A stretch of 64,000 nt of DNA from Paralichthys olivaceus (Eukaryota > Chordata > Actinopteri > Pleuronectiformes > Paralichthyidae), in contig NC_091116.1 in the NCBI RefSeq assembly GCF_024713975.1, forward strand, positions 4,798,463 to 4,862,462, given 5' to 3'. The notes under the pieces are model-generated. The model was not told the origin of the DNA. It worked only from the letters and a program-made list of their open reading frames with translations, and did not search any database. A program made the position numbers and the translations under genes. Positions 1 through 30,658 of the stretch are shown here, piece after piece (within the stretch, counting starts at the first letter, position 1; the number at the start of each line of letters is the position of its first letter).

Positions 1-1692
1 GTCTGCATTGTTCTTTACAAAGTCAAACATTTATTGTATGAAGTGAAAAATGCTAGAAGATGTGTCTTGTCTGTGAATCACTGAAGTTGTATTTAGTTGT
101 ACAAGCAGTGTGTTTGAGAACAGCTTCACATGTGTGTTGCATGGAGTCGACCAAGTTGCGTCACCTGTGTACAGGTATTGTAGTCCAGGATGATCGGAGT
201 GGCCACTCCATTATGTTAGTGTTGTTGGATGTTGAAGATGCTGTGTGCTTACTTGTGTGTTTGGGGTGGTTGTCTTGTTGAAACACACATTTGAAGGGTG
301 TCTCCTCTTTGGCATAAGGCAACACAATGTCTTGAAGTATTGTGCCTGTGCCATCATGCTTCACAGTGTTCTGTGGTTTGAACAGTGTTGCCTTCATCAC
401 TCCACAAAATGTTGTGGTATTGTCCTTTAAGGAAAATTGTAACCTCTTCAGCACATGTTGATTTTTCAACAATTGGACTTTGCGTAGGTGTCATTTTGGT
501 TATTGTTTGATTCATCTGAATGGTAGTGTTCTGTTGTCTTCCACGTCTTTGTGGTTTTGGTTGCTATTTTAAAGGATTTGAGATGATTGAAGTTGAGCGG
601 TTTGTACTTTTCTGGTTTTTTGATACTTTTGAATCAAAGTATGCTGTTGTTGTGAACAATGACCCATGTTCCAGTGATTTTCAGAGAAATGCACTAGAAC
701 TAGCATGTAGAACATTTGCTGCCTTGGTCCTTAAATGAGGGCCACCTGTTTGACTTGAGTAATAGAACTCCACACTGCTGTTCTTTTGAACACAATGACT
801 GTTGTTGAAAGTGGTGAAATTGTGTTAGGGTTGTGTCTTGTCATGCCTCTGTCACAATAGAAAGGTGATTGTTCAGCCAGGAAAAGTCCCAGGTGAGTAT
901 GTTTCTATTCTTTTCTCTTCTCAAAAATCTATTGGGTGAACCTGCATGGTTTTCTAAATAGTAATTTAGTTTTGTGTAAGTCCAGTTTTTGTATGAATGC
1001 CACACAGTGTTTGCTAAATGAGACCCTTGATTGTTTTGACTGTCATACAGGGCCGATGAGGACAGCGGCTCACTGGTTATGTGGAGCGATGTTGTTTGAG
1101 GTAAGTAATGTATTAAGAGCAAATAGTCTGAATAATCTGTACACACTGACGTTGTTAAAGTTGTAAAAACTAAAGACGACCACTTCTGTCCCCTTTCAGA
1201 CATTGTACTGAAAGTCCTTGGTGGTGCGAGGGAACCACATGGAAAATGGTGAGTGTGATTTAAAATAGGTATTGAGCTTTTAAAGATTGTTGTTTAGCAG
1301 CAAATAGGTATGTGTTCCTCCAGGTGAGCCATAAGTCCTGGTTACTGTATGTTAATGTGTTATTGTGTCTAGCAGGTTGTACTTCATGTGGACCTAAGAA
1401 ACCTCTAAGCTGTTCCACCAGTGTTACTGAGGATCAACAGTGGTAAGTGGTTGTACAGTTCAGTGTTTGTTCATTAAATCAAAAGAGACTTTATATTAAT
1501 GTGTGTTTGTAAACCATGTCATGTGTTACAGGTTTGTTGAAGCACCTGGATTGTGTCACTGCTGGATTTGTGAGTAGATTTGAACAGTTATTGTTTGAAT
1601 GTATTTGATCTATTGCTGCTTGTTCCATGTGAGATGTAGAGTTGTGTTCAGAATAATAGCAGTGTGTTAATAAAAAAAAAAAAGATAGCAGT
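1..1692 (+). repeat. Left monomer L1 (type A)
   Basis: The window opens exactly at a monomer start. The Tc1 half covers 1-796, its inner TIR lying at 771-796 and its outer TIR cut off by the window edge. The exon-like half covers 797-1640. The outer TIR of the next Tc1 relic starts at 1641, followed by a T-A12 linker. A-type marks are ACAAGCAG near 100, GGTTTTTTGATAC near 615 and AAATGAGGG near 733. Confidence 0.9.
843..1569 (+). pseudogene. Six-exon ghost gene fragment in monomer L1 (unidentified)
   Basis: Exon-like segments at 843-892, 1051-1100, 1200-1248, 1308-1323, 1357-1442 and 1532-1569 have lengths 50, 50, 49, 16, 86 and 38 bp. Donors are GTGAGT, GTAAGT, GTGAGT, GTGAGC, GTAAGT and GTGAGT. 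Acceptors include CATACAG, CCTTTCAG and GTTACAG. Starting at ATG 843, the joined frame runs through all junctions in phase, giving pieces such as ADEDSGSLVMWSDVV, IVLKVLGG, HGKWYVFLQ, CTSCGPKKPLSC and QQWFVEAPGLCHCWI. It is broken by TAG at codon 6 and by TGA two codons before the end of segment 2. In this monomer the acceptor before segment 5 has been lost to a short deletion. I do not recognise the product. The last donor runs into the Tc1 TIR 71 bp later, so any downstream exons are absent. It could instead be noncoding with chance splice motifs, but the phase agreement makes that less likely. Confidence 0.45.
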
Positions 1693-2489
1693 GTCTGCAT
1701 TGGTCTTTACAAAGTCAAACATTAATTGTATGAAGGGAAAAATGCTAGAAGATGTGTCTTGTCTGTGAATCACTGAAGTTGTATTTAGTTGTACGAGCAG
1801 TGTGTTTGAGAACTGCTTCACATGTGTGTTGCATGGAGTCGACCAAGTTGCGTCACCTGTGTACAGGTATTGTAGTCCAGGATGATCGGAGTGGCCACTC
1901 CATTATGTTAGTGTTGTTGGATGTTGAAGATGCTGTGTGCTTACTTGTGTGTTTGGGGTGGTTGTCTTGTTGAAACACACATTTGAAGGGTGTCTCCTCT
2001 TTGGCATAAGTCAACATGATGTCTTGAAGTATTGTGCTTGTGCCACCATGCTTCACAGTGTTCTGTGGTTTGAACAGTGTTGCCTTCATCACTCCACAAA
2101 ATGTTGTGGTATTTTCCTTTAAGGAAAATTGTAACCTTTTCAGCAGATGTTGATTTTTCAACAATTGGACTTTGCGTAGGTGTCATTTTGGTTATTGTTT
2201 GATTCATCTGAATGGTAGTGTTCTGTTGTCTTCCACGTCTTTGTGGTTTTGGTTGCTATTTTAAAGGATTTGAGATGATTGAAGTTGAGCAGTTTGTACT
2301 TTTCTGGTTGTGTTGATACTTTTGAATCAAAGTATGCTGTTGTTTTGAACAATGACCCATGTTCCAGTGATTTTCAGACAAATGCACTAGAACTAGCATG
2401 TAGAACATTTGCTGCCTTGGTCCTTAAATGACGGCCACCTGTTTGACTTGAGTAATAGAACTCCACACTGCTGTTCTTTTGAACACAAT
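1641..2489 (-). mobile_element. Tc1/mariner-like transposon relic inside monomer L2 (representative left copy)
   Basis: TIRs lie at 1641-1666 (GTTGTGTTCAGAATAATAGC...) and 2464-2489 (...GAACACAAT), inverted and matching over about 26 bp. The transposase remains are on the minus strand. Frame 2207-1941 carries HNILWSDE, the block around the first catalytic Asp of Tc1 transposases. Frame 2164-1853 carries TVKHGG and then FQQDNHPKHTSK, the second-Asp block, followed by NIMEWP where Tc1 proteins have the WP-x-SPDLNPIE region. The third acidic residue is not visible. The two frames overlap, so at least one frameshift separates the blocks. Full-length Tc1 elements are about 1.3-1.6 kb, so this copy is internally shortened. 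It cannot encode a working transposase. Equivalent relics in the left array lie at 3334-4194, 5039-5887, 6722-7570, 8415-9275, 10120-10968, 11812-12660, 13505-14365, 15210-16058, 16903-17751 and 18599-19456. Confidence 0.8.
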
Positions 2490-3398
2490 GACTGTTGTTG
2501 AAAGTGGTGAAATTGTGTTAGGGTTGTGTCTTGTCATGCCTCTGTCACAATAGAAAGGTGATTGTTCAGCCAGGAAAAGTCCCAGGTGAGTATGTTTCTA
2601 TTCTTTTCTCTTCTCAAAAATCTATTGGGTGAACCTGCATGGTTTTCTAAATAGTAATTTAGTTTTGTGTAAGTCCAGTTTTTGTATGAATGCCACACAG
2701 TGTTTGCTAAATGAGACCCTTGATTGTTTTGACTGTCATACAGGGCCGATGAGGACAGCGGCTCACTGGTTATGTGGAGCGATGTTGTTTGAGGTAAGTA
2801 ATGTATTAAGAGCAAATAGTCTGAATAATCTGTACACACTGACGTTGTTAAAGTTGTAAAAACTAAAGACGACCACTTCTGTCCCCTTTCAGACATTGTA
2901 CTGAAAGTCCTTGGTGGTGCGAGGGAACCACATGGAAAATGGTGAGTTTGATCTAAAATAGATTATCAGCTTTTAAAGATTGTTGTTTAGCAGCAAGTAG
3001 GTATGTGTTCCTCCAGGTGAGCCATAAGTCCTGGTTACTGTATGTTAATGTGTTATTGTGTCTAGCAGGTTGTACTTCATGTGGACCTAAGAAACCTCTA
3101 AGCTGTTCCACCAGTGTTACTGAGGATCAACAGTGGTAAGTGGTTGTACAGTTCAGTGTTTGTTCATTAAATCAAAAGAGACTTTATATTAATGTGTGTT
3201 TGTAAACCATGTCATGTGTTACAGGTTTGTTGAAGCACCTGGATTGTGTCACTGCTGGATTTGTGAGTAGATTTGAACAGTTATTGTTTGAATGTATTTG
3301 ATCTATTGCTGCTTGTTCCATGTGAGAAGTAGAGTTGTGTTCAAAGTAATAGCAGTGTGTTTTAAACAATATAATACAATAAAATAAAAGATAGCAGT
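1693..3398 (+). repeat. Left monomer L2 (type B2)
   Basis: This 1706-bp monomer has an ACGAGCAG mark, ATGTCTTGAAG and GGTTGTGTTGATAC. The Tc1 relic is at 1641-2489 and the exon-like segments follow, with the first donor near 2586. It ends in the long linker type TTTTAAACAATATAATAC..., which in this array always precedes an A monomer. Confidence 0.9.
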
Positions 3399-5090
3399 GT
3401 CTGCATTGTTCTTTACAAAGTCAAACATTTATTGTATGAAGTGAAAAATGCTAGAAGATGTGTCTTGTCTGTGAATCACTGAAGTTGTATTTAGTTGTAC
3501 AAGCAGTGTGTTTGAGAACAGCTTCACATGTGTGTTGCATGGAGTCGACCAAGTTGCGTCACCTGTGTACAGGTATTGTAGTCCAGGATGATCGGAGTGG
3601 CCACTCCATTATGTTAGTGTTGTTGGATGTTGAAGATGCTGTGTGCTTACTTGTGTGTTTGGGGTGGTTGTCTTGTTGAAACACACATTTGAAGGGTGTC
3701 TCCTCTTTGGCATAAGGCAACACAATGTCTTGAAGTATTGTGCCTGTGCCATCATGCTTCACAGTGTTCTGTGGTTTGAACAGTGTTGCCTTCATCACTC
3801 CACAAAATGTTGTGGTATTGTCCTTTAAGGAAAATTGTAACCTCTTCAGCACATGTTGATTTTTCAACAATTGGACTTTGCGTAGGTGTCATTTTGGTTA
3901 TTGTTTGATTCATCTGAATGGTAGTGTTCTGTTGTCTTCCACGTCTTTGTGGTTTTGGTTGCTATTTTAAAGGATTTGAGATGATTGAAGTTGAGCGGTT
4001 TGTACTTTTCTGATTTTTTGATACTTTTGAATCAAAGTATGCTGTTGTTGTGAACAATGACCCATGTTCCAGTGATTTTCAGAGAAATGCACTAGAACTA
4101 GCATGTAGAACATTTGCTGCCTTGGTCCTTAAATGAGGGCCACCTGTTTGACTTGAGTAATAGAACTCCACACTGCTGTTCTTTTGAACACAATGACTGT
4201 TGTTGAAAGTGGTGAAATTGTGTTAGGGTTGTGTCTTGTCATGCCTCTGTCACAATAGAAAGGTGATTGTTCAGCCAGGAAAAGTCCCAGGTGAGTATGT
4301 TTCTATTCTTTTCTCTTCTCAAAAATCTATTGGGTGAACCTGCATGGTTTTCTAAATAGTAATTTAGTTTTGTGTAAGTCCAGTTTTTGTATGAATGCCA
4401 CACAGTGTTTGCTAAATGAGACCCTTGATTGTTTTGACTGTCATACAGGGCCGATGAGGACAGCGGCTCACTGGTTATGTGGAGCGATGTTGTTTGAGGT
4501 AAGTAATGTATTAAGAGCAAATAGTCTGAATAATCTGTACACACTGACGTTGTTAAAGTTGTAAAAACTAAAGACGACCACTTCTGTCCCCTTTCAGACA
4601 TTGTACTGAAAGTCCTTGGTGGTGGGAGGGAACCACATGGAAAATGGTGAGTGTGATTTAAAATAGGTATTGAGCTTTTAAAGATTGTTGTTTAGCAGCA
4701 AATAGGTATGTGTTCCTCCAGGTGAGCCATAAGTCCTGGTTACTGTATGTTAATGTGTTATTGTGTCTAGCAGGTTGTACTTCATGTGGACCTAAGAAAC
4801 CTCTAAGCTGTTCCACCAGTGTTACTGAGGATCAACAGTGGTAAGTGGTTGTACAGTTCAGTGTTTGTTCATTAAATCAAAAGAGACTTTATATTAATGT
4901 GTGTTTGTAAACCATGTCATGTGTTACAGGTTTGTTGAAGCACCTGGATTGTGTCACTGCTGGATTTGTGAGTAGATTTGAACAGTTATTGTTTGAATGT
5001 ATTTGATCTATTGCTGCTTGTTCCATGTGAGATGTAGAGTTGTGTTCAGAATAATAGCAGTGTGTTAATAAAAAAAAAAAAGATAGCAGT
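3399..5090 (+). repeat. Left monomer L3 (type A), start of HOR copy 1
   Basis: This 1692-bp A monomer has its Tc1 relic at 3334-4194. A G-to-A change near 4011 (CTGATTTTTTG) distinguishes it from other A monomers. Segment 3 reads GGTGGGAGG, against GGTGCGAGG in most left copies. Confidence 0.9.
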
Positions 5091-6773
5091 GTCTGCATTG
5101 GTCTTTACAAAGTCAAACATTAATTGTATGAAGGGAAAAATGCTAGAAGATGTGTCTTGTCTGTGAATCACTGAAGTTGTATTTAGTTGTACGAGCAGTG
5201 TGTTTGAGAACTGCTTCACATGTGTGTTGCATGGAGTCGACCAAGTTGCGTCACCTGTGTACAGGTATTGTAGTCCAGGATGATCGGAGTGGCCACTCCA
5301 TTATGTTAGTGTTGTTGGATGTTGAAGATGCTGTGTGCTTACTTGTGTGTTTGGGGTGGTTGTCTTGTTGAAACACACATTTGAAGGGTGTCTCCTCTTT
5401 GGCATAAGTCAACATGATGTTTTGAAGTATTGTGCTTGTGCCACCATGCTTCACAGTGTTCTGTGGTTTGAACAGTGTTGCCTTCATCACTCCACAAAAT
5501 GTTGTGGTATTTTCCTTTAAGGAAAATTGTAACCTTTTCAGCAGATGTTGATTTTTCAACAATTGGACTTTGCGTAGGTGTCATTTTGGGTATTGTTTGA
5601 TTCATCTGAATGGTAGTGTTCTGTTGTCTTCCACGTCTTTGTGGTTTTGGTTGCTATTTTAAAGGATTTGAGATGATTGAAGTTGAGCAGTTTGTACTTT
5701 TCTGGTTGTGTTGATACTTTTGAATCAAAGTATGCTGTTGTTTTGAACAATGACCCATGTTCCAGTGATTTTCAGACAAATGCACTAGAACTAGCATGTA
5801 GAACATTTGCTGCCTTGGTCCTTAAATGACGGCCACCTGTTTGACTTGAGTAATAGAACTCCACACTGCTGTTATTTTGAACACAATGACTGTTGTTGAA
5901 ATTGTGTTAGGGTTGTGTCTTGTCATGCCTCTGTCACAATAGAAAGGTGATTGTTCAGCCAGGAAAAGTCCCAGGTGAGTATGTTTCTATTCTTTTCTCT
6001 TCTCAAAAATCTATTGGGTGAACCTGCATGGTTTATAAATAGTAATTTAGTTTTGTGTAAGTCCAGTTTTTGTATGAATGCCACACAGTGTTTGCTAAAT
6101 GAGACCCTTGATTGTTTTGACTGTCATACAGGGCCGATGAGGACAGCGGCTCACTGGTTATGTGGAGCGATGTTGTTTGAGGTAAGTAATGTATTAAGAG
6201 CAAATAGTCTGAATAATCTGTACACACTGACGTTGTTAAAGTTGTAAAAACTAAAGACGACCACTTCTGTCCCCTTTCAGACATTGTACTGAAAGTCCTT
6301 GGTGGTGCGAGGGAACCACATGGAAAATGGTGAGTTTGATCTAAAATAGATTATCAGCTTTTAAAGATTGTTGTTTAGCAGCAAGTAGGTATGTGTTCCT
6401 CCAGGTGAGCCATAAGTCCTGGTTACTGTATGTTAATGTGTTATTGTGTCTAGCAGGTTGTACTTCATGTGGACCTAAGAAACCTCTAAGCTGTTCCACC
6501 AGTGTTACTGAGGATCAACAGTGGTAAGTGGTTGTACAGTTCAGTGTTTGTTCATTAAATCAAAAGAGACTTTATATTAATGTGTGTTTGTAAACCATGT
6601 CATGTGTTACAGGTTTGTTGAAGCACCTGGATTGTGTCACTGCTGGATTTGTGAGTAGATTTGAACAGTTATTGTTTGAATGTATTTGATCTATTGCTGC
6701 TTGTTCCATGTGAGATGTAGAGTTGTGTTCAGAATAATAGCAGTGTGTTAATAAAAAAAAAAAAGATAGCAGT
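5091..6773 (+). repeat. Left monomer L4 (type B1), with 9-bp deletion
   Basis: This 1683-bp B1 monomer has its Tc1 relic at 5039-5887. The sequence near 5895 lacks AAAGTGGTG, which every other left monomer carries after GACTGTTGTTG. This deletion alone explains why HOR copy 1 is 9 bp shorter than copy 2. GGTTTATAAATAG near 6030 replaces GGTTTTCTAAATAG and is shared with L7. Confidence 0.9.
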
Positions 6774-8479
6774 GTCTGCATTGGTCTTTACAAAGTCAAA
6801 CATTAATTGTATGAAGGGAAAAATGCTAGAAGATGTGTCTTGTCTGTGAATCACTGAAGTTGTATTTAGTTGTACGAGCAGTGTGTTTGAGAACTGCTTC
6901 ACATGTGTGTTGCATGGAGTCGACCAAGTTGCGTCACCTGTGTACAGGTATTGTAGTCCAGGATGATCGGAGTGGCCACTCCATTATGTTAGTGTTGTTG
7001 GATGTTGAAGATGCTGTGTGCTTACTTGTGTGTTTGGGGTGGTTGTCTTGTTGAAACACACATTTGAAGGGTGTCTCCTCTTTGGCATAAGTCAACATGA
7101 TGTCTTGAAGTATTGTGCTTGTGCCACCATGCTTCACAGTGTTCTGTGGTTTGAACAGTGTTGCCTTCATCACTCCACAAAATGTTGTGGTATTTTCCTT
7201 TAAGGAAAATTGTAACCTTTTCAGCAGATGTTGATTTTTCAACAATTGGACTTTGCGTAGGTGTCATTTTGGTTATTGTTTGATTCATCTGAATGGTAGT
7301 GTTCTGTTGTCTTCCACGTCTTTGTGGTTTTGGTTGCTATTTTAAAGGATTTGAGATGATTGAAGTTGAGCAGTTTGTACTTTTCTGGTTGTGTTGATAC
7401 TTTTGAATCAAAGTATGCTGTTGTTTTGAACAATGACCCATGTTCCAGTGATTTTCAGACAAATGCACTAGAACTAGCATGTAGAACATTTGCTGCCTTG
7501 GTCCTTAAATGACGGCCACCTGTTTGACTTGAGTAATAGAACTCCACACTGCTGTTCTTTTGAACACAATGACTGTTGTTGAAAGTGGTGAAATTGTGTT
7601 AGGGTTGTGTCTTGTCATGCCTCTGTCACAATAGAAAGGTGATTGTTCAGCCAGGAAAAGTCCCAGGTGAGTATGTTTCTATTCTTTTCTCTTCTCAAAA
7701 ATCTATTGGGTGAACCTGCATGGTTTTCTAAATAGTAATTTAGTTTTGTGTAAGTCCAGTTTTTGTATGAATGCCACACAGTGTTTGCTAAATGAGACCC
7801 TTGATTGTTTTGACTGTCATACAGGGCCGATGAGGACAGCGGCTCACTGGTTATGTGGAGCGATGTTGTTTGAGGTAAGTAATGTATTAAGAGCAAATAG
7901 TCTGAATAATCTGTACACACTGACGTTGTTAAAGTTGTAAAAACTAAAGACGACCACTTCTGTCCCCTTTCAGACATTGTACTGAAAGTCCTTGGTGGTG
8001 CGAGGGAACCACATGGAAAATGGTGAGTTTGATCTAAAATAGATTATCAGCTTTTAAAGATTGTTGTTTAGCAGCAAGTAGGTATGTGTTCCTCCAGGTG
8101 AGCCATAAGTCCTGGTTACTGTATGTTAATGTGTTATTGTGTCTAGCAGGTTGTACTTCATGTGGACCTAAGAAACCTCTAAGCTGTTCCACCAGTGTTA
8201 CTGAGGATCAACAGTGGTAAGTGGTTGTACAGTTCAGTGTTTGTTCATTAAATCAAAAGAGACTTTATATTAATGTGTGTTTGTAAACTATGTCATGTGT
8301 TACAGGTTTGTTGAAGCACCTGGATTGTGTCACTGCTGGATTTGTGAGTAGATTTGAACAGTTATTGTTTGAATGTAGTTGATCTATTGCTGCTTGTTCC
8401 ATGTGAGAAGTAGAGTTGTGTTCAAAGTAATAGCAGTGTGTTTTAAACAATATAATACAATAAAATAAAAGATAGCAGT
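6774..8479 (+). repeat. Left monomer L5 (type B2)
   Basis: This 1706-bp monomer has its Tc1 relic at 6722-7570. It closes HOR copy 1 with the long AT linker. AAACTATGTCATG near 8286 and GAATGTAGTTG near 8372 are private to L5 and L8 among full B2 monomers, tying the two HOR copies together. Confidence 0.9.
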
Positions 8480-10171
8480 GTCTGCATTGTTCTTTACAAA
8501 GTCAAACATTTATTGTATGAAGTGAAAAATGCTAGAAGATGTGTCTTGTCTGTGAATCACTGAAGTTGTATTTAGTTGTACAAGCAGTGTGTTTGAGAAC
8601 AGCTTCACATGTGTGTTGCATGGAGTCGACCAAGTTGCGTCACCTGTGTACAGGTATTGTAGTCCAGGATGATCGGAGTGGCCACTCCATTATGTTAGTG
8701 TTGTTGGATGTTGAAGATGCTGTGTGCTTACTTGTGTGTTTGGGGTGGTTGTCTTGTTGAAACACACATTTGAAGGGTGTCTCCTCTTTGGCATAAGGCA
8801 ACACAATGTCTTGAAGTATTGTGCCTGTGCCATCATGCTTCACAGTGTTCTGTGGTTTGAACAGTGTTGCCTTCATCACTCCACAAAATGTTGTGGTATT
8901 GTCCTTTAAGGAAAATTGTAACCTCTTCAGCACATGTTGATTTTTCAACAATTGGACTTTGCGTAGGTGTCATTTTGGTTATTGTTTGATTCATCTGAAT
9001 GGTAGTGTTCTGTTGTCTTCCACGTCTTTGTGGTTTTGGTTGCTATTTTAAAGGATTTGAGATGATTGAAGTTGAGCGGTTTGTACTTTTCTGGTTTTTT
9101 GATACTTTTGAATCAAAGTATGCTGTTGTTGTGAACAATGACCCATGTTCCAGTGATTTTCAGAGAAATGCACTAGAACTAGCATGTAGAACATTTGCTG
9201 CCTTGGTCCTTAAATGAGGGCCACCTGTTTGACTTGAGTAATAGAACTCCACACTGCTGTTCTTTTGAACACAATGACTGTTGTTGAAAGTGGTGAAATT
9301 GTGTTAGGGTTGTGTCTTGTCATGCCTCTGTCACAATAGAAAGGTGATTGTTCAGCCAGGAAAAGTCCCAGGTGAGTATGTTTCTATTCTTTTCTCTTCT
9401 CAAAAATCTATTGGGTGAACCTGCATGGTTTTCTAAATAGTAATTTAGTTTTGTGTAAGTCCAGTTTTTGTATGAATGCCACACAGTGTTTGCTAAATGA
9501 GACCCTTGATTGTTTTGACTGTCATACAGGGCCGATGAGGACAGCGGCTCACTGGTTATGTGGAGCGATGTTGTTTGAGGTAAGTAATGTATTAAGAGCA
9601 AATAGTCTGAATAATCTGTACACACTGACGTTGTTAAAGTTGTAAAAACTAAAGACGACCACTTCTGTCCCCTTTCAGACATTGTACTGAAAGTCCTTGG
9701 TGGTGCGAGGGAACCACATGGAAAATGGTGAGTGTGATTTAAAATAGGTATTGAGCTTTTAAAGATTGTTGTTTAGCAGCAAATAGGTATGTGTTCCTCC
9801 AGGTGAGCCATAAGTCCTGGTTACTGTATGTTAATGTGTTATTGTGTCTAGCAGGTTGTACTTCATGTGGACCTAAGAAACCTCTAAGCTGTTCCACCAG
9901 TGTTACTGAGGATCAACAGTGGTAAGTGGTTGTACAGTTCAGTGTTTGTTCATTAAATCAAAAGAGACTTTATATTAATGTGTGTTTGTAAACCATGTCA
10001 TGTGTTACAGGTTTGTTGAAGCACCTGGATTGTGTCACTGCTGGATTTGTGAGTAGATTTGAACAGTTATTGTTTGAATGTATTTGATCTATTGCTGCTT
10101 GTTCCATGTGAGATGTAGAGTTGTGTTCAGAATAATAGCAGTGTGTTAATAAAAAAAAAAAAGATAGCAGT
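8480..10171 (+). repeat. Left monomer L6 (type A), start of HOR copy 2
   Basis: This 1692-bp monomer has its Tc1 relic at 8415-9275. It matches L1 closely, including GTGAGTGTGATTTAAAATAGG after segment 3. Confidence 0.9.
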
Positions 10172-11863
10172 GTCTGCATTGGTCTTTACAAAGTCAAACA
10201 TTAATTGTATGAAGGGAAAAATGCTAGAAGATGTGTCTTGTCTGTGAATCACTGAAGTTGTATTTAGTTGTACGAGCAGTGTGTTTGAGAACTGCTTCAC
10301 ATGTGTGTTGCATGGAGTCGACCAAGTTGCGTCACCTGTGTACAGGTATTGTAGTCCAGGATGATCGGAGTGGCCACTCCATTATGTTAGTGTTGTTGGA
10401 TGTTGAAGATGCTGTGTGCTTACTTGTGTGTTTGGGGTGGTTGTCTTGTTGAAACACACATTTGAAGGGTGTCTCCTCTTTGGCATAAGTCAACATGATG
10501 TTTTGAAGTATTGTGCTTGTGCCACCATGCTTCACAGTGTTCTGTGGTTTGAACAGTGTTGCCTTCATCACTCCACAAAATGTTGTGGTATTTTCCTTTA
10601 AGGAAAATTGTAACCTTTTCAGCAGATGTTGATTTTTCAACAATTGGACTTTGCGTAGGTGTCATTTTGGGTATTGTTTGATTCATCTGAATGGTAGTGT
10701 TCTGTTGTCTTCCACGTCTTTGTGGTTTTGGTTGCTATTTTAAAGGATTTGAGATGATTGAAGTTGAGCAGTTTGTACTTTTCTGGTTGTGTTGATACTT
10801 TTGAATCAAAGTATGCTGTTGTTTTGAACAATGACCCATGTTCCAGTGATTTTCAGACAAATGCACTAGAACTAGCATGTAGAACATTTGCTGCCTTGGT
10901 CCTTAAATGACGGCCACCTGTTTGACTTGAGTAATAGAACTCCACACTGCTGTTATTTTGAACACAATGACTGTTGTTGAAAGTGGTGAAATTGTGTTAG
11001 GGTTGTGTCTTGTCATGCCTCTGTCACAATAGAAAGGTGATTGTTCAGCCAGGAAAAGTCCCAGGTGAGTATGTTTCTATTCTTTTCTCTTCTCAAAAAT
11101 CTATTGGGTGAACCTGCATGGTTTATAAATAGTAATTTAGTTTTGTGTAAGTCCAGTTTTTGTATGAATGCCACACAGTGTTTGCTAAATGAGACCCTTG
11201 ATTGTTTTGACTGTCATACAGGGCCGATGAGGACAGCGGCTCACTGGTTATGTGGAGCGATGTTGTTTGAGGTAAGTAATGTATTAAGAGCAAATAGTCT
11301 GAATAATCTGTACACACTGACGTTGTTAAAGTTGTAAAAACTAAAGACGACCACTTCTGTCCCCTTTCAGACATTGTACTGAAAGTCCTTGGTGGTGCGA
11401 GGGAACCACATGGAAAATGGTGAGTTTGATCTAAAATAGATTATCAGCTTTTAAAGATTGTTGTTTAGCAGCAAGTAGGTATGTGTTCCTCCAGGTGAGC
11501 CATAAGTCCTGGTTACTGTATGTTAATGTGTTATTGTGTCTAGCAGGTTGTACTTCATGTGGACCTAAGAAACCTCTAAGCTGTTCCACCAGTGTTACTG
11601 AGGATCAACAGTGGTAAGTGGTTGTACAGTTCAGTGTTTGTTCATTAAATCAAAAGAGACTTTATATTAATGTGTGTTTGTAAACCATGTCATGTGTTAC
11701 AGGTTTGTTGAAGCACCTGGATTGTGTCACTGCTGGATTTGTGAGTAGATTTGAACAGTTATTGTTTGAATGTATTTGATCTATTGCTGCTTGTTCCATG
11801 TGAGATGTAGAGTTGTGTTCAGAATAATAGCAGTGTGTTAATAAAAAAAAAAAAGATAGCAGT
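10172..11863 (+). repeat. Left monomer L7 (type B1)
   Basis: This 1692-bp monomer has its Tc1 relic at 10120-10968. It is the counterpart of L4, with the same TTTATAAATAG change, but it keeps the 9 bp that L4 lost. Confidence 0.9.
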
Positions 11864-13569
11864 GTCTGCATTGGTCTTTACAAAGTCAAACATTAATTGT
11901 ATGAAGGGAAAAATGCTAGAAGATGTGTCTTGTCTGTGAATCACTGAAGTTGTATTTAGTTGTACGAGCAGTGTGTTTGAGAACTGCTTCACATGTGTGT
12001 TGCATGGAGTCGACCAAGTTGCGTCACCTGTGTACAGGTATTGTAGTCCAGGATGATCGGAGTGGCCACTCCATTATGTTAGTGTTGTTGGATGTTGAAG
12101 ATGCTGTGTGCTTACTTGTGTGTTTGGGGTGGTTGTCTTGTTGAAACACACATTTGAAGGGTGTCTCCTCTTTGGCATAAGTCAACATGATGTCTTGAAG
12201 TATTGTGCTTGTGCCACCATGCTTCACAGTGTTCTGTGGTTTGAACAGTGTTGCCTTCATCACTCCACAAAATGTTGTGGTATTTTCCTTTAAGGAAAAT
12301 TGTAACCTTTTCAGCAGATGTTGATTTTTCAACAATTGGACTTTGCGTAGGTGTCATTTTGGTTATTGTTTGATTCATCTGAATGGTAGTGTACTGTTGT
12401 CTTCCACGTCTTTGTGGTTTTGGTTGCTATTTTAAAGGATTTGAGATGATTGAAGTTGAGCAGTTTGTACTTTTCTGGTTGTGTTGATACTTTTGAATCA
12501 AAGTATGCTGTTGTTTTGAACAATGACCCATGTTCCAGTGATTTTCAGACAAATGCACTAGAACTAGCATGTAGAACATTTGCTGCCTTGGTCCTTAAAT
12601 GACGGCCACCTGTTTGACTTGAGTAATAGAACTCCACACTGCTGTTCTTTTGAACACAATGACTGTTGTTGAAAGTGGTGAAATTGTGTTAGGGTTGTGT
12701 CTTGTCATGCCTCTGTCACAATAGAAAGGTGATTGTTCAGCCAGGAAAAGTCCCAGGTGAGTATGTTTCTATTCTTTTCTCTTCTCAAAAATCTATTGGG
12801 TGAACCTGCATGGTTTTCTAAATAGTAATTTAGTTTTGTGTAAGTCCAGTTTTTGTATGAATGCCACACAGTGTTTGCTAAATGAGACCCTTGATTGTTT
12901 TGACTGTCATACAGGGCCGATGAGGACAGCGGCTCACTGGTTATGTGGAGCGATGTTGTTTGAGGTAAGTAATGTATTAAGAGCAAATAGTCTGAATAAT
13001 CTGTACACACTGACGTTGTTAAAGTTGTAAAAACTAAAGACGACCACTTCTGTCCCCTTTCAGACATTGTACTGAAAGTCCTTGGTGGTGCGAGGGAACC
13101 ACATGGAAAATGGTGAGTTTGATCTAAAATAGATTATCAGCTTTTAAAGATTGTTGTTTAGCAGCAAGTAGGTATGTGTTCCTCCAGGTGAGCCATAAGT
13201 CCTGGTTACTGTATGTTAATGTGTTATTGTGTCTAGCAGGTTGTACTTCATGTGGACCTAAGAAACCTCTAAGCTGTTCCACCAGTGTTACTGAGGATCA
13301 ACAGTGGTAAGTGGTTGTACAGTTCAGTGTTTGTTCATTAAATCAAAAGAGACTTTATATTAATGTGTGTTTGTAAACTATGTCATGTGTTACAGGTTTG
13401 TTGAAGCACCTGGATTGTGTCACTGCTGGATTTGTGAGTAGATTTGAACAGTTATTGTTTGAATGTAGTTGATCTATTGCTGCTTGTTCCATGTGAGAAG
13501 TAGAGTTGTGTTCAAAGTAATAGCAGTGTGTTTTAAACAATATAATACAATAAAATAAAAGATAGCAGT
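11864..13569 (+). repeat. Left monomer L8 (type B2)
   Basis: This 1706-bp monomer has its Tc1 relic at 11812-12660. It is the counterpart of L5. GTAGTGTACTG near 12392 is a private T-to-A change. Confidence 0.9.
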
Positions 13570-15261
13570 GTCTGCATTGTTCTTTACAAAGTCAAACATT
13601 TATTGTATGAAGTGAAAAATGCTAGAAGATGTGTCTTGTCTGTGAATCACTGAAGTTGTATTTAGTTGTACAAGCAGTGTGTTTGAGAACAGCTTCACAT
13701 GTGTGTTGCATGGAGTCGACCAAGTTGCGTCACCTGTGTACAGGTATTGTAGTCCAGGATGATCGGAGTGGCCACTCCATTATGTTAGTGTTGTTGGATG
13801 TTGAAGATGCTGTGTGCTTACTTGTGTGTTTGGGGTGGTTGTCTTGTTGAAACACACATTTGAAGGGTGTCTCCTCTTTGGCATAAGGCAACACAATGTC
13901 TTGAAGTATTGTGCCTGTGCCATCATGCTTCACAGTGTTCTGTGGTTTGAACAGTGTTGCCTTCATCACTCCACAAAATGTTGTGGTATTGTCCTTTAAG
14001 GAAAATTGTAACCTCTTCAGCACATGTTGATTTTTCAACAATTGGACTTTGCGTAGGTGTCATTTTGGTTATTGTTTGATTCATCTGAATGGTAGTGTTC
14101 TGTTGTCTTCCACGTCTTTGTGGTTTTGGTTGCTATTTTAAAGGATTTGAGATGATTGAAGTTGAGCGGTTTGTACTTTTCTGGTTTTTTGATACTTTTG
14201 AATCAAAGTATGCTGTTGTTGTGAACAATGACCCATGTTCCAGTGATTTTCAGAGAAATGCACTAGAACTAGCATGTAGAACATTTGCTGCCTTGGTCCT
14301 TAAATGAGGGCCACCTGTTTGACTTGAGTAATAGAACTCCACACTGCTGTTCTTTTGAACACAATGACTGTTGTTGAAAGTGGTGAAATTGTGTTAGGGT
14401 TGTGTCTTGTCATGCCTCTGTCACAATAGAAAGGTGATTGTTCAGCCAGGAAAAGTCCCAGGTGAGTATGTTTCTATTCTTTTCTCTTCTCAAAAATCTA
14501 TTGGGTGAACCTGCATGGTTTTCTAAATAGTAATTTAGTTTTGTGTAAGTCCAGTTTTTGTATGAATGCCACACAGTGTTTGCTAAATGAGACCCTTGAT
14601 TGTTTTGACTGTCATACAGGGCCGATGAGGACAGCGGCTCACTGGTTATGTGGAGCGATGTTGTTTGAGGTAAGTAATGTATTAAGAGCAAATAGTCTGA
14701 ATAATCTGTACACACTGACGTTGTTAAAGTTGTAAAAACTAAAGACGACCACTTCTGTCCCCTTTCAGACATTGTACTGAAAGTCCTTGGTGGTGCGAGG
14801 GAACCACATGGAAAATGGTGAGTTTGATCTAAAATAGATTATCAGCTTTTAAAGATTGTTGTTTAGCAGCAAGTAGGTATGTGTTCCTCCAGGTGAGCCA
14901 TAAGTCCTGGTTACTGTATGTTAATGTGTTATTGTGTCTAGCAGGTTGTACTTCATGTGGACCTAAGAAACCTCTAAGCTGTTCCACCAGTGTTACTGAG
15001 GATCAACAGTGGTAAGTGGTTGTACAGTTCAGTGTTTGTTCATTAAATCAAAAGAGACTTTATATTAATGTGTGTTTGTAAACCATGTCATGTGTTACAG
15101 GTTTGTTGAAGCACCTGGATTGTGTCACTGCTGGATTTGTGAGTAGATTTGAACAGTTATTGTTTGAATGTATTTGATCTATTGCTGCTTGTTCCATGTG
15201 AGATGTAGAGTTGTGTTCAGAATAATAGCAGTGTGTTAATAAAAAAAAAAAAGATAGCAGT
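13570..15261 (+). repeat. Left monomer L9 (A/B hybrid)
   Basis: This 1692-bp monomer has its Tc1 relic at 13505-14365. It starts as type A (ACAAGCAG, TTTTTTGATAC, AAATGAGGG near 14302). After segment 3 it carries B-type GTGAGTTTGATCTAAAATAG and GCAAGTAGG. The switch lies between about 14310 and 14820. Confidence 0.9.
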
Positions 15262-16954
15262 GTCTGCATTGGTCTTTACAAAGTCAAACATTAATTGTAT
15301 GAAGGGAAAAATGCTAGAAGATGTGTCTTGTCTGTGAATCACTGAAGTTGTATTTAGTTGTACGAGCAGTGTGTTTGAGAACTGCTTCACATGTGTGTTG
15401 CATGGAGTCGACCAAGTTGCGTCACCTGTGTACAGGTATTGTAGTCCAGGATGATCGGAGTGGCCACTCCATTATGTTAGTGTTGTTGGATGTTGAAGAT
15501 GCTGTGTGCTTACTTGTGTGTTTGGGGTGGTTGTCTTGTTGAAACACACATTTGAAGGGTGTCTCCTCTTTGGCATAAGTCAACATGATGTCTTGAAGTA
15601 TTGTGCTTGTGCCACCATGCTTCACAGTGTTCTGTGGTTTGAACAGTGTTGCCTTCATCACTCCACAAAATGTTGTGGTATTTTCCTTTAAGGAAAATTG
15701 TAACCTTTTCAGCAGATGTTGATTTTTCAACAATTGGACTTTGCGTAGGTGTCATTTTGGTTATTGTTTGATTCATCTGAATGGTAGTGTTCTGTTGTCT
15801 TCCACGTCTTTGTGGTTTTGGTTGCTATTTTAAAGGATTTGAGATGATTGAAGTTGAGCAGTTTGTACTTTTCTGGTTGTGTTGATACTTTTGAATCAAA
15901 GTATGCTGTTGTTTTGAACAATGACCCATGTTCCAGTGATTTTCAGACAAATGCACTAGAACTAGCATGTAGAACATTTGCTGCCTTGGTCCTTAAATGA
16001 CGGCCACCTGTTTGACTTGAGTAATAGAACTCCACACTGCTGTTCTTTTGAACACAATGACTGTTGTTGAAAGTGGTGAAATTGTGTTAGGGTTGTGTCT
16101 TGTCATGCCTCTGTCACAATAGAAAGGTGATTGTTCAGCCAGGAAAAGTCCCAGGTGAGTATGTTTCTATTCTTTTCTCTTCTCAAAAATCTATTGGGTG
16201 AACCTGCATGGTTTTCTAAATAGTAATTTAGTTTTGTGTAAGTCCAGTTTTTGTATGAATGCCATACAGTGTTTGCTAAATGAGACCCTTGATTGTTTTG
16301 ACTGTCATACAGGGCCGATGAGGACAGCGGCTCACTGGTTATGTGGAGCGATGTTGTTTGAGGTAAGTAATGTATTAAGAGCAAATAGTCTGAATAATCT
16401 GTACACACTGACGTTGTTAAAGTTGTAAAAACTAAAGACGACCACTTCTGTCCCCTTTCAGACATTGTACTGAAAGTCCTTGGTGGTGCGAGGGAACCAC
16501 ATGGAAAATGGTGAGTTTGATCTAAAATAGATTATCAGCTTTTAAAGATTGTTGTTTAGCAGCAAGTAGGTATGTGTTCCTCCAGGTGAGCCATAAGTCC
16601 TGGTTACTGTATGTTAATGTGTTATTGTGTCTAGCAGGTTGTACTTCATGTGGACCTAAGAAACCTCTAAGCTGTTCCACCAGTGTTACTGAGGATCAAC
16701 AGTGGTAAGTGGTTGTACAGTTCAGTGTTTGTTCATTAAATCAAAAGAGACTTTATATTAATGTGTGTTTGTAAACCATGTCATGTGTTACAGGTTTGTT
16801 GAAGCACCTGGATTGTGTCACTGCTGGATTTGTGAATAGATTTGAACAGTTATTGTTTGAATGTATTTGATCTATTGCTGCTTGTTCCATGTGAGATGTA
16901 GAGTTGTGTTCAGAATAATAGCAGTGTGTTAATAAAAAAATAAAAGATAGCAGT
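15262..16954 (+). repeat. Left monomer L10 (type B2-like)
   Basis: This 1693-bp monomer has its Tc1 relic at 15210-16058. Private marks are GCCATACAG near 16262, GTGAATAG near 16834 and a linker of A7-T-A4 instead of A12. The donor after segment 6 is mutated (GTGAAT). Confidence 0.9.
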
Positions 16955-18663
16955 GTCTGCATTGGTCTTTAAAATGTCAAACATTAATTGTATGAAGGGA
17001 AAAATGCTAGAAGATGTGTCTTGTCTGTGAATCACTGAAGTTGTATTTAGTTGTACGAGCAGTGTGTTTGAGAACAGCTTCACATGTGTGTTGCATGGAG
17101 TCGACCAAGTTGCGTCACCTGTGTACAGGTATTGTAGTCCAGGATGATCGGAGTGGCCACTCCATAATGTTAGTGTTGTTGGATGTTGAAGATGCTGTGT
17201 GCTTACTTGTGTGTTTGGGGTGGTTGTCTCGTTGAAACACACATTTGAAGGGTGTCTCCTCTTTGGCATAAGTCAACATGATGTTTTGAAGTATTGTGCT
17301 TGTGCCACCATGCTTCACAGTGTTCTGTGGTTTGAACAGTGTTGCCTTCATCACTCCACAAAATGTTGTGGTATTGTCCTTTAAGGAAAATTGTAACCTT
17401 TTCAGCAGATGTTGATTTTTCAACAATGGGACTTTGTGTAGGTGTCATTTTGGGTATTGTTTGATTCATCTGAATGGTAGTGTTCTGTTGTCTTCCACGT
17501 CTTTGTGGTTTTGGTTGCTATTTTAAAGGATTTGAGATGATTGAAGTTGAGCAGTTTGTACTTTTCTGGTTGTGTTGATACTTTTGAATCAAAGTATGCT
17601 GTTGTTTTGAACAATGACCCATGTTCCAGTGATTTTCAGACAAATGCACTAGAACTAGCATGTAGAACATTTGCTGCCTTGGTCCTTAAATGAGGGCCAC
17701 CTGTTTGACTTGAGTAATAGAACTCCACACTGCTGTTATTTTGAACACAATGACTGTTGTTGAAAGTGGTGAAATTGTGTTAGGGTTCTGTCTTGTCATG
17801 CCTCTGTCACAATAGAAAGGTGATTGTTCAGCCAGGAAAAGTCCCAGGTGAGTATGTTTCTATTCTTTTCTCTTCTCAAAAATCTATTGGGTGAACCTGC
17901 ATGGTTTTCTAAATAGTAATTTAGTTTTGTGTAAGTCCAGTTTTTGTATGAATGCCACACAGAGTTTGCTAAATGAGACCCTTGATTGTTTTGTCTGTCA
18001 TACAGGGCCGATGAGGACAGCGGCTCACTCGTTAGGTGGAGCGATGTTGTTTGAGGTAAGTAATGTATTAAGAGCAAATCGTCTGAATAATCTGTACACA
18101 CTGACGTTGTTAAAAATAAAGACGACCACTTCTTTCCTCTTTCAGACATTGTACTGAAAGTCCTTGGTGGTGGGAGGGAACCACATGGAAAATGGTGAGT
18201 TTGATCTAAAATAGATTATCAGCTTTTAAAGATTGTTGTTTAGCAGCAAGTAGGTATGTGTTCCTCCAGGTGAGCCATAAGTCCTGGTTACTGTATGTCC
18301 TTCATGTGTTTCAGGTGTTATTGTGTCTACCAGGTTGTACTTCATGTGGACCTAAGAAACCTCTAAGCTGTTCCACCAGTGTTACTGAGGATCAACAGTG
18401 GTAAGTGGTTGTACAGTTCAGTGTTTGTTCATTAAATCAAAAGAGACTTTATATTAATGTGTGTTTGTAAACCATGTCATGTGTTACAGGTTTGTTGAAG
18501 CACCTGGATTGTGTCACTGCTGGATTTGTGAGTAGATTTGAACAGTTATTGTTTGAATGTAGTTGATCTATTGCTGCTTGTTCCATGTGAGAAGTAGAGT
18601 TGTGTTCAAAGTAATAGCAGTGTGTTTTAAACAATATAATACAATAAAATAAAAGATAGCAGT
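16955..18663 (+). repeat. Left monomer L11 (B1-like, divergent, shares right-array variants)
   Basis: This 1709-bp monomer has its Tc1 relic at 16903-17751. Segment 2 reads CTCACTCGTTAGGTGGAG, the form seen in several right-array monomers (for example R3, R7, R8 and R12), where other left monomers read CTCACTGGTTATGTGGAG. It keeps CCTTCATGTGTTTCAG before segment 5. The 10 bp AGTTGTAAAA between segments 2 and 3 is missing (GTTAAAAATAAAG). Confidence 0.9.
17798..18527 (+). pseudogene. Ghost gene fragment in monomer L11, best-preserved left splice set
   Basis: This copy keeps a strong acceptor before segment 5, TTCATGTGTTTCAG ending at 18314. Segment 5 is therefore bounded as 18315-18400 (86 bp, 28 codons plus 2 bases). 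Segment 6 is 18490-18527. Segment 3 gives the GGGREPHGKW form. The two stops (TAG at codon 6, TGA near the end of segment 2) are still present. It shows that the weak acceptor in most other left monomers is a secondary loss. Confidence 0.45.
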
Positions 18664-20364
18664 GTCTGCATTGTTCTTTACAAAGTCAAACATTTATTGT
18701 ATGAAGTAAAAAATGCTAGATGTGTCTTGTCTGTGAATCATTGAAGTTGTATTTAGTTGTACAAGCAGTGTGTTTGAGAACAGCTTCACATGTGTGTTGC
18801 ATGGAGTCGACCAAGTTGCGTCACCTGTGTACAGGTATTGTAGTCCAGGATGATCGGAGTGGCCACTCCATAATGTTAGTGTTGTTGGATGTTGAAGATG
18901 CTGTGTGCTTACTTGTGTGTTTGGGGTGGTTGTCTTGTTGAAACACACATTTGAAGGGTGTCTCCTCTTTGGCATAAGGCAACACAATGTCTTGAGGTAT
19001 TGTGACTGTGCCATCATGCTTCACAGTGTTCTGTGGTTTGAACAGTGTTGCCTTCATCACTCCACAAAATGTTGTGGTATTGTCCTTTAAGGAAAATTGT
19101 AACCTCTTCAGCACATGTTGATTTTTCAACAATTGGACTTTGCGTAGGTGTCATTTTGGTTATTGTTTGATTCATCTGAATGGTAGTGTTCTGTTGTCTT
19201 CCACGTCTTTGTGGTTTTGGTTGCTATTTTAAAGGATTTGAGATGATTGAAGTTGAGCGGTTAGTACTTTTCTGGTTTTTTGATACTTTTGAATCAAAGT
19301 ATGCTGTTGTTGTGAACAATGACCCATGTTCCAGTGATTTTCAGAGAAATGCACTAGAACTAGCATGTAGAACATTTGCTGCCTTGGTCCTTAAATGAGG
19401 GCCACCTGTTTGACTTGAGTAATAGAACTCCACACTGCTGTTCTTTTGAACACAATGACTGTTGTTGAAAGTGGTGAAATTGTGTTAGGGTTCTGTCTTG
19501 TCATGCCTCTGTCACAATAGAAAGGTGATTGTTCAGCCAGGAAAAGTCCCAGGTGAGTATGTTTCTATTCTTTTCTCTTCTCAAAAATCTATTGGGTGAA
19601 CCTGCATGGTTTTCTAAATAGTAATTTAGTTTTGTGTAAGTCCAGTTTTTGTATGAATGCCACACAGTGTTTGCTAAATGAGACCCTTGATTGTTTTGAC
19701 TGTCATACAGGGCCGATGAGGACAGTGGCTCACTGGTTATGTGGAGCGATGTTGTTTGAGGTAAGTAATGTATTAAGAGCAAATAGTCTGAATAATCTGT
19801 ACACACTGACGTTGTTAAAGTTGTAAAAACTAAAGACGACCACTTCTGTCCCCTTTCAGACATTGTACTGAAAGTCCTTGGTGGTGCGAGGGAACCACAT
19901 GGAAAATGGTGAGTGTGATTTAAAATAGTTATTGAGCTTTTAAAGATTGTTGTTTAGCAGCAAATAGGTATGTGTTCCTCCAGGTGAGCCATAAGTCCTG
20001 GTTACTGTATGTTAATGTGTTATTGTGTCTAGCAGGTTGTACTTCATGTGGACCTAAGAAACCTCTAAGCTGTTCCACCAGTGTTACTGAGGATCAACAG
20101 TGGTAAGTGGTTGTACAGTTCAGTGTTTGTTCATTAAATCAAAAGAGACTTTATATTAATGTGTGTTTGTAAACCATGTCATGTGTTACAGGTTTGTTGA
20201 AGCACCTGGATTGTGTCACTGCTGGATTTGTGAGTAGATTTGAACAGTTATTGGTTTGAATGTAGTTGATCTATTGCTGCTTGTTCCATGTGAGATGTAG
20301 AGTTGTGTTCAAAATAATAGCAGTGTGTTAATAAAAAATAAATAAATAAATAAAAGATAGCAGT
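18664..20364 (+). repeat. Left monomer L12 (type A)
   Basis: This 1701-bp monomer has its Tc1 relic at 18599-19456. GAAGA is lost near 18718 (GCTAGATGTG). Private changes are CTTGAGGTATTGTGACTG near 18991 and ATTGGTTTGAATG near 20251. The linker has become TAAAAAATAAATAAATAAATAAAAG. Confidence 0.9.
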
Positions 20365-21448
20365 GTCTGCATTGGTCTTTACAAAGTCAAACATTAATTG
20401 TATGAAGGGAAAAATGCTAGAAGATGTGTCTTGTCTGTGAATCACTGAAGTTGTATTTAGTTGTACGAGCAGTGTGTTTGAGAACTGCTTCACATGTGTG
20501 TTGCATGGAGTTGACCAAGTTGCGTCACCTGTGTACACGTATTGTAGTCCAGGATGATCGGAGTGGCCACTCCATTATGTTAGTGTTGTTGGATGTTGAA
20601 GATGCTGCGTGCTTCTATGTCATTGTGGTTTTGGTTGCTATTTTAAAGGATTTGAGATGATTGAAGTTGAGCGGTTAGTAGTTTTCTGGTTGTCTTGATA
20701 CTTTTGAATCAAAGTATGCTGTTGTTGTGAACAATGACCCATGTTCCAGTGATTTTCAGACAAATGCACTAGAACTAGCATGTAGAACATTTGCTGCCTT
20801 GGTCCTTAAATGACGGCCACCTGTTTGACTTGAGTAATAGAACTCCACACTGCTGTTCTTTTGAACACAATGACTGTTGTTGAAAGTGGTGAAATTGTGT
20901 TAGGGTTGTGTCTTGTCATGCCTCTGTCACAATAGAAAGGTGATTGTTCAGCCAGGAAAAGTCCCAGGTGAGTATGTTTCTATTCTTTTCTCTTCTCAAA
21001 AATCTATTGGGTAAACTTGCTGCACTTGCTAACTAGGTGTGTGTCCCTCCATGTGAGCCATAACTCCATTTCCTTCATGTGTTTCAGGTGTTATTGTGTC
21101 TACCAGGTTGTACTTCATGTGGACCTAAGAAACCTCTAAGCTGTTTCACCAGTGTTACTGAGGATCAACAGTGGTAAGTGTTTGTACAGTTCAGTGTTTG
21201 TTCATTAAATCAAAAGAGACTTTATATTAATGTGTGTTTGTAAACCATGTCATGTGTTACAGGTTTGTTGAAGCACCTGGATTGTGTCACTGCTGGAATT
21301 GATAGTAGATTTGAACAGTTATGGTTTGAATGTAGTTGATCTATTGCAGCTTGTTCCATGTGAGATGTAGAGTTGTGTTGAAAATAATAGCAGTGTGTTG
21401 TAAACAAAATAATAAAATAAAATAAAAGATATTGTCTGCATTGTTCTT
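20365..21448 (+). repeat. Left monomer L13, shortened, cut by L2 insertion
   Basis: Two internal deletions are seen. The transposase core is gone: after GATGCTGCGTGCTTCTATGTC near 20620 the sequence passes straight to TTGTGGTTTTGG. Segments 2 and 3 are also gone, the sequence passing from AATCTATTGGGTAAAC to TGCTAACTAGG near 21035. Its Tc1 relic is 20302-20871 (570 bp). The next Tc1 TIR starts at 21372, and array sequence ends after GCATTGTTCTT at 21448, where L2 sequence begins. The same short monomer borders the other two L2 copies (34391-35457 and 63238 onward). Confidence 0.85.
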
Positions 21449-28920: not shown

Positions 28921-30006
28921 TCTTTGTGGTTTTGGTTGTTATTTTAAAGGATTTGAGATGATTGTAGTTGAACAGTTTGTACTTTTCTGGTTGTCTTGAT
29001 ACTTTTGAATCAAAGTATGCTGTTGTTGTGAATAATGAGCCATGTTCCAGTGATTTTCAGACAAATGCACTAGAACTAGCATGTAGAACATTTGCTGCCT
29101 TGGTCCTTAAATGAGGGCCACCTGTTTGACTTGAGTAATAGAACTCCACACTGCTGTTATTTTGAACACAATGACTGTTGTTGAAAGTGGTGAAATTGTG
29201 TTAGGGTTCTGTCTTGTCATGCCTCTGTCACAATAGAAAGGTGATTGTTCAGCCAGGAAAAGTCCCAGGTGAGTATGTTTCTATTCTTTTCTCTTCTCAA
29301 AAATCTATTGGGTGCACCTGCATGGTTTTCTAAATAGTAATTTAGTTTTGTCTAAGTCCAGTTTTTGTATGAATGCTGTATGAGACCCTTGATTGTTTTC
29401 TCTGTTTGTCATACAGGGCCGATGAGGACAGCGGCTCACTGGTTATGTGGAGCGATGTTGTTTGAGGTAAGTAATGTATTAAGAGCAAATAGTCTGAATA
29501 ATCTGTACACACTGACGTTGTTAAAAATAAAGACGACCACTTGGAAAATGGTGAGTTTGATCTAAAATAGATGATCAGCTTTTAAAGATTGTAGTTTAGC
29601 AGCAAGTAGGTATGTGTTCCTCCAGGTGAGCCATAAGTCCTGGTTACTTATAAGGTACATGTCCTTCATGTGTTTCAGGTGTTTACCAGGTTGTACTTCA
29701 TGTGGACCTAAGAAACCTCTTACCACTGAGGATCAACAGTGGTAAGTGGTTGTACAGTTCAGTGTTTGTTCATTAAATCAAAGGTGACTTTATATCAATG
29801 TGTGTTTGTAAACCATGTCATGTGTTACAGGTTTGTTGAAGCACCTGGATTGTGTCACTGCTGGATTTGTGAGTAGATTTGAACAGTTATTGGTTTGAAT
29901 GTAGTTGATCTATTGCTGCTTGTTCCATGTGAGATGTAGAGTTGTGTTTAAAATAATAGCAGTGTTAATAAATAAAAAAAATTAATAATAAATGAAAGAT
30001 AGCAGT
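28921..30006 (+). repeat. Partial array monomer after U
   Basis: Array sequence resumes at monomer position ~546. It includes half a Tc1 relic (28921-29172, inner TIR at 29147-29172) and exon-like segments. Segment 1 ends at the GTGAGT near 29269 and segment 2 begins after CATACAG near 29417. Segment 3 is mostly deleted (GACGACCACTTGGAAAATGG). Segment 5 is shortened (CCTCTTACCACTGAGG). It ends with an outer Tc1 TIR near 29939 and an A/T-rich linker. Confidence 0.85.
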
Positions 30007-30375
30007 GTCTGCATTGTTCTTTACAAAGACACAAAGATGTGTCTTGTCTGTGAATCACTGAACTTGTACAAGCAGTGTGTTGATGCGTACAAGCAGTGTG
30101 TTGATGCGTGCTTCTACATCTTAGTGGTTTTGGTTTTTATTTTAAAGGATTTGAGATGATTGAAGTTGAGTGGTTTGTACTTTTCTGGTTGTCTTGACAC
30201 TTTTGAATCAAAGTATGCTGTTGTTGTGAACAATGACCCATGTTCCAGTGATTTTCAGACAAATGCACTAGAACTAACATGTAGAACATTTGCTGCCTTG
30301 GTCTTTAAATGAGGGCCACCTGTTTGACTTGAGTAATAGAACTCCACACTGAAAATTGTGTTAGGGTTGTCTCTT
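30007..30375 (+). repeat. Heavily deleted array monomer next to the palindrome
   Basis: It starts with GTCTGCATTGTTC. Most of the Tc1 half is lost; a 22-bp piece, GTACAAGCAGTGTGTTGATGC, is present twice (near 30066 and 30088). It runs to GTTAGGGTTGTCTCTTGT, where it joins the tRNA-like sequence. The join has a mirror near 31150. Confidence 0.8.
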
Positions 30376-30558: not shown

Positions 30559-30658
30559 NNNNNNNNNNNNNNNNNNNNNNNNNNNNNNNNNNNNNNNNNN
30601 NNNNNNNNNNNNNNNNNNNNNNNNNNNNNNNNNNNNNNNNNNNNNNNNNNNNNNNNNN
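30559..30658. other. Assembly gap (100 N)
   Basis: Exactly 100 undetermined bases, which usually means a gap of unknown size. It sits inside the inverted repeat formed by 30360-30558 and 30970-31165. Confidence 0.99.

Follow-up and report, generated by a model that had tools for sequence, protein, structure and literature searches.

A Tc1-associated macrosatellite on contig C24 of Paralichthys olivaceus carries what is probably a dead, formerly spliced fragment

We find that a 1.7-kb tandem repeat on contig NC_091116.1 (C24) of Paralichthys olivaceus is a composite, in which each full monomer joins an internally deleted Tc1-like transposon half to about 843 bp of other DNA (about 798-1640 in the first copy), which we call the gene half. 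We favour, as the probable explanation, that the gene half is a dead, formerly spliced fragment, a non-coding passenger in a Tc1-flanked macrosatellite enlarged by unequal recombination. The window (the whole stretch of 64,000 nucleotides that was analysed, bases 4798463-4862462 of C24 in an assembly of 588 Mb and 25 contigs) holds two arrays of this monomer, in opposite orientations (Table 1).

The copies lie head to tail and are about 94-100% identical among full monomers, as is usual in satellite and macrosatellite DNA. Array 1 extends to the left beyond the edge of the window, and to the right of the window the repeats go on, with interruptions, to about C24:4.870 Mb. Monomers of a deletion type, which lack exons 2 and 3, have also been amplified: there are eight in C24:4.70-4.96 Mb and two in locus L029. 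They differ from full monomers by many substitutions around the 16-bp segment (20950-21185 of the window; 6700-6960 of L029), and look as if they had come from a diverged version of the monomer. The isolated copy in the window is damaged in exons 3 and 5. Between the plus and the minus arrays there is an assembly gap of 100 N (30559-30658), flanked by inverted arms at about 30.1-30.55 and 30.98-31.41 kb, which are 91% alike and, on reading the sequence, contain tRNA-like sequence; because the gap sits between the arrays and between these inverted arms, the reversed direction of array 2 is only as secure as the scaffolding at this point. An inverted duplication of about 7 kb that includes the LINE remnant (21.4-28.9 kb and 56.4-63.2 kb) accompanies the arrays.

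Table 1. Positions of the repeat arrays, the parts of the first monomer and the flanking elements, counted from the first base of the window.
Feature	Position	Strand	Remarks
Array 1	1..20348	+	12 full head-to-tail monomers (~1.69 kb); gene half on +, Tc1-like half on -
Deletion-type monomer	20365..21412	+	without exons 2-3; segment 4 altered
LINE reverse-transcriptase remnant	21416..23665	+	ends array 1; Pfam RVT_1 2.8e-12 and 1.9e-15 in two adjoining open stretches
Isolated damaged monomer pieces	28921..30351	+	no leader upstream
Array 2	34404..54321	-	same monomers as array 1, reversed; full and deletion types mixed
Leader	54358..55016	-	truncated LTR-element remnant directly upstream of array 2 in exon sense; C24:4852820-4853478
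Deleted Tc1-like transposase remnant, first monomer	1..797	-	via match of array 2 counterpart
Tc1-like inverted-repeat arm, left of gene half	771..795	+	25 nt, 88% complementary to 1642-1666
Tc1-like inverted-repeat arm, right of gene half	1642..1666	+	end of next element; pairs with 771-795
Segment 1	843..892	+	50 bp; donor CAG/GTGAGT; in-frame TAG inside; no AG before segment
Segment 2	1051..1100	+	50 bp; acceptor CATACAG, donor GAG/GTAAGT; in-frame TGA at end
Segment 3	1200..1248	+	49 bp; acceptor CCCCTTTCAG, donor ATG/GTGAGT
Segment 4	1308..1323	+	16 bp; doubtful exon
Segment 5	1357..1442	+	86 bp; AT instead of acceptor AG in this copy; donor GTG/GTAAGT
Segment 6	1532..1569	+	38 bp; acceptor TTACAG, donor-like TTT/GTGAGT, both below scoring cut-off

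The transposon half is recognisable by homology and by structure. The corresponding part of array 2 yields a 54-aa peptide that matches the Sleeping Beauty transposase 5cr4_A (E=8.3e-5), and the half ends in terminal inverted repeats (the paired 25-nt arms, 88% complementary); a Pfam search with one longer read-through and three shorter pieces of this half gave no match. A TA is present at one Tc1 border (GATGTA/GAGTTGTG) and is not evident, on reading the sequence, at the other. Because the transposase remnant and the gene half lie on opposite sides of the arms (taking the inner and outer direction of this repeat family in part as an assumption of our own), the gene half stands between elements, and not inside one; it is not enclosed by the inverted repeats of one element, as the host fragment of a Pack-TYPE element is. 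The initial annotation had proposed that a fragment of a split gene was captured and amplified with a transposon, and a formerly spliced fragment amplified with a transposon is still the best reading of this anatomy, but "captured" has to be qualified for a fragment outside the Tc1-like inverted repeats. To judge by its position, it was probably caught between two elements, with recombination then amplifying it. The arrays at loci L029 and L034 both start and end within the Tc1-like half.

The gene half had been annotated as six segments of 50, 50, 49, 16, 86 and 38 bp, and these indeed recur, with the same lengths, in 22 of the 23 full-length gene-half copies of the window and in 79 of 80 copies in a wider sample (C24:4700001-4960000 together with L029). 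The AG/GT borders ascribed to every segment are less constant. Before the 86-bp exon the AG is AT in 12 of the 23 window copies, the copy cited for the annotation included (11 of 12 copies in array 1 and one of ten in array 2; the isolated 23rd copy keeps AG), because the monomer type of array 1 lacks a short stretch there, and in the wider sample this acceptor is gone from 45 of 80 copies. The best remaining acceptor nearby, at 1376, would give a 67-bp exon (1376-1442). Four of the 23 window copies have lost the donor GT that follows exon 2, and one has lost that following exon 6. The 16-bp segment starts with GTATGT and ends with CAG, and its neighbouring introns would be only 59 and 33-45 bp long; as an exon it seems implausible, and it is more likely to be the 3′ end of intron 3, making five exons without it more plausible than six.

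What argues for a splicing past is chiefly the donors. Scored with splice-site matrices entered by hand, the plus strand of the gene half holds eight strong donors against a shuffle mean of 2.4, a number reached in none of 500 dinucleotide shuffles, and the minus strand holds none. Of these, five lie at the end of a proposed exon (893, 1101, 1249, 1324 and 1443) and three do not (865, 1308 and 1629). Segment 6 has neither a donor nor an acceptor that reaches the same cut-off, and the acceptor of segment 4 misses it too. Taken alone, acceptors are not significant, either in array 1 (three sites; 88 of 500 shuffles have as many) or in the array-2 consensus (four sites; 45 of 500). The exons are also richer in GC than the introns (0.481 against 0.351 in the array-2 consensus; 17 of 729 circular shifts are as extreme). 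Thus the donor excess, together with the higher GC of the exons, makes it likely, if short of proven, that the gene half descends from something spliced. The opposite view is that there is no gene fragment here at all, and that T/G-rich repeat DNA with chance splice-like sites has come to look meaningful through hundreds of copies. The unremarkable acceptors and the three donors away from exon ends are what such DNA would give, as are open frames no longer than chance and the outcome of the protein, RNA-family and parent-locus searches given below; against it stand the donor count, with its strict confinement to one strand, and the contrast in GC between exons and introns. We regard this view as unlikely, and as the most serious of the alternatives.

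As a protein-coding gene the proposed exon chain fails. The phases had been said to chain correctly from an ATG across five introns; the frame so formed stops at codon 6 (in exon 1) and again at codon 33 (at the end of exon 2) in all 79 measurable copies, with a further stop in one of them and these two only in the other 78. The agreement of phase is likewise lost in unbiased consensuses, where both arrays give the same stops. A protein from the proposed start can no longer be encoded, and the chain lacks the open frame of a protein-coding split gene. The longest open stretch in the joined exons, which runs mainly through segments 3-6, is 63 codons with the 16-bp segment and 64 codons without it; 469 and 369 of 2000 shuffles, respectively, have one as long. 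This stretch, and the conserved segment lengths, are what could be said for some copies still making protein from a multi-exon gene; against these stand the stops in every measurable copy, the chance length of the open stretch, the lack of a significant Pfam or PDB match, and the fact that conserved length follows from recent copying, so that we find continued coding hardly credible.

Recent copying could also account for the uniformity of the gene half as a whole. In 80 full copies (50 of them distinct) diversity is 0.0157 in exons against 0.0276 in introns, which is the direction that selection would give; selection on the exons is nevertheless not demonstrated, because 46 of 729 shifted annotations are as low. 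The identical segment lengths can be explained by recent copying because monomers without exons 2-3, and a damaged copy, exist alongside the full ones. As part of our favoured explanation as a whole, it is thus probable that the exons are passengers, presumably without function, which owe their uniformity to recent copying rather than to selection.

The initial annotation could not name a protein, and we fared no better: two and then six joined gene-half frames found no Pfam family at E up to 10, and three frames gave only chance matches in the PDB (best E 0.45). No Rfam family reached its gathering score in the window or in loci L029-L033; of five permissive Rfam matches in 640-1692, that with the lowest E, SCARNA7 (E 0.09; 17.1 bits against a cut-off of 65), was set aside as chance. 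An exon-2 pattern had no match in viral contigs; allowing up to three mismatches, it had 254 matches genome-wide (control, none), and all 100 of these that were listed are on C24, near 4.4-4.8 and 8.1-8.2 Mb. When the five exons were joined into one query, none of the best 40 of 340 candidates was an intronless, spliced copy; the matches listed were only exon by exon, all on C24. Patterns with other intron lengths gave 5, 10 and 0 matches, and all 15 were C24 array copies with small intron indels, while a first-module query matched C24 in all 40 of the matches listed. As far as seen, then, the satellite is restricted to this contig.

A parent gene with the same exon borders was not found in this assembly among the matches listed, in lists which array copies filled, so that a diverged parent could be missed. 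Profile searches with the gene half gave no match in the flanks or the LTR loci, and none in the 24 kb surrounding C24:10.48 Mb once the array had been masked; the short DNA matches there were weak (lowest E 0.065; 0.47 for a reversed control). Because no parent was found, the term "gene fragment" rests on the donor sites and the base composition. In locus L034 there are open exon-like stretches downstream of the array (6304-6432, 6509-6607 and 7211-7339; C24 about 10.488-10.489 Mb), the last of which has a weak PDB match to the N-terminal region of syntaxin-6 (E 0.08), and part of these is repeated, at about 79-80%, beside leaders. A link between these stretches and the gene half was tested and was not supported.

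The surroundings of the arrays are shared as well as the monomers. The leader that stands upstream of array 2 has 25 high-identity copies among the matches listed (best 40 of 106 candidates), all on C24, near 4.4-4.9, 5.7-5.8, 8.1-8.2, 10.5-10.9 and 11.2-11.3 Mb. Diverged pieces of it (76-89%) occur on other contigs, and two of the four such places inspected have a pair of direct repeats of about 300 bp (89% and 96% alike), 0.6-1.0 kb apart; because related copies hold these direct-repeat pairs, we identify the leader as the remnant of an LTR element. We had also considered it as a promoter with two spliced exons, which was ruled out by the copies in L030-L032, which are LTR-derived and lack GT donors. 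In the sense of the exons, a leader stands upstream of each of the three arrays that were read directly within C24:4.70-4.96 Mb (at 4740040, 4852820 and 4870543). By its coordinates a fourth array has one as well (4693186), and so do the arrays of L029, L034 and L035. Downstream of the L029 array comes the sequence with which array 1 also ends, namely the LINE of the window; the L034 array is followed by other sequence, not the LINE.

Several further features of the leader copies are worth recording. Three C24 clusters are bounded on either side by full-length leaders that point inward (4.407+/4.870-, 8.112+/8.238- and 10.901+/11.271-, in Mb), and two leaders are unpaired (5.820- and a near-full copy at 10.482+). 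C24 itself is 14.74 Mb long, and four other contigs are 19.8-29.9 Mb. In L029 a leader-adjacent monomer carries an extra insert at the border of the Tc1-like and gene halves (2329-2463), and the same insert is common to two further leader-adjacent copies, at C24 5819715 and 8237099.

This layout could be read as that of a living non-coding transcription unit, in which the LTR remnant would drive a long plus-sense RNA, the repeated exons would be spliced, and the Tc1 elements would lie antisense in its introns, much as in a uni-strand piRNA precursor or a repeat-built lncRNA. The position of the leaders would suit such a unit, as would the TATA and the GATTGG motif in the upstream part of the leader, the antisense orientation of Tc1 to the exons in the copies read, and the nearly intact donors; it is from the layout that the idea of an active, LTR-driven RNA derives. 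Yet the arrays duplicate one arrangement, so that their consistency amounts to a single event; the leader lacks the TTTAAAAA box seen in a related LTR; the segment 5 acceptor is lost from more than half of the copies; and the isolated monomer has no leader. We therefore judge a living unit of this kind improbable. More improbable again is its fullest form, in which each LTR-headed array on C24 would be one long, strand-specific unit with near-identical exon modules spliced together and antisense Tc1 in the introns, serving as a chromosome-restricted source of transposon-silencing or regulatory RNA.

We propose instead, returning to the dead fragment as our preferred reading, that an ancient spliced transcription unit left behind a fragment of about five short exons, on the strand opposite to the Tc1-like element, and that this fragment came to be flanked by two Tc1-like copies of the same orientation. 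Unequal recombination between these flanking copies may then have produced arrays of the form Tc1-(gene-Tc1)n, and larger duplications may have spread the arrays along C24, carrying with them the LTR remnant upstream and, in most arrays read, the LINE downstream. Recombination between elements of the same orientation on either side of the fragment would be expected to leave just this order. Counting against this scheme are the insert at the Tc1/gene border in L029, which a simple model of this kind would leave unexplained, the want of a clear TA duplication at both Tc1 ends, and the L034 array that has no LINE after it.

If this reading is correct, it illustrates how two broken transposons can convert a genic fragment unrelated to them, splice signals included, into a macrosatellite numbering some 250 copies. 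There is a caution here for annotation too: when exons of tandem repeats agree exactly in length, this reflects recent copying and is no proof of a living gene.

Considering systems with which the repeat might be compared, the D4Z4 macrosatellite and the LPA kringle-IV repeats are likewise tandem units on the kilobase scale with gene or exon content, and resemble ours in joining such a unit to exon-like sequence; they differ in that here the proposed frame is not open and a Tc1-like element makes up half of the unit. Pack-TYPE elements, which are transposons carrying pieces of host genes, share with it the association of an intron-bearing gene fragment with a DNA transposon, although here the inverted repeats do not enclose the fragment, which seems to have spread by tandem and segmental duplication.

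In the literature, no title among the matches listed, from queries that did not use the species name, describes this satellite. The nearest published case that we found is the Bari1 cluster of Drosophila melanogaster, in which an element of the Tc1-mariner superfamily forms a tandem cluster of about 80 repeats (PMC9659126). Bari1 and our repeat are alike in that a Tc1-type element has been amplified into a cluster; they differ in that here the element is internally deleted, each unit includes about 843 bp of non-Tc1, donor-site-rich DNA, and copies are found at several loci of one contig. The miDNA4 satellite of Xenopus tropicalis is linked to a MITE and has its motif inside the MITE (PMC9659126). 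It resembles the C24 repeat as a satellite tied to a non-autonomous Tc1-mariner element, and differs in the place of its cargo, since in the C24 repeat the passenger lies outside the inverted repeats, between the elements.
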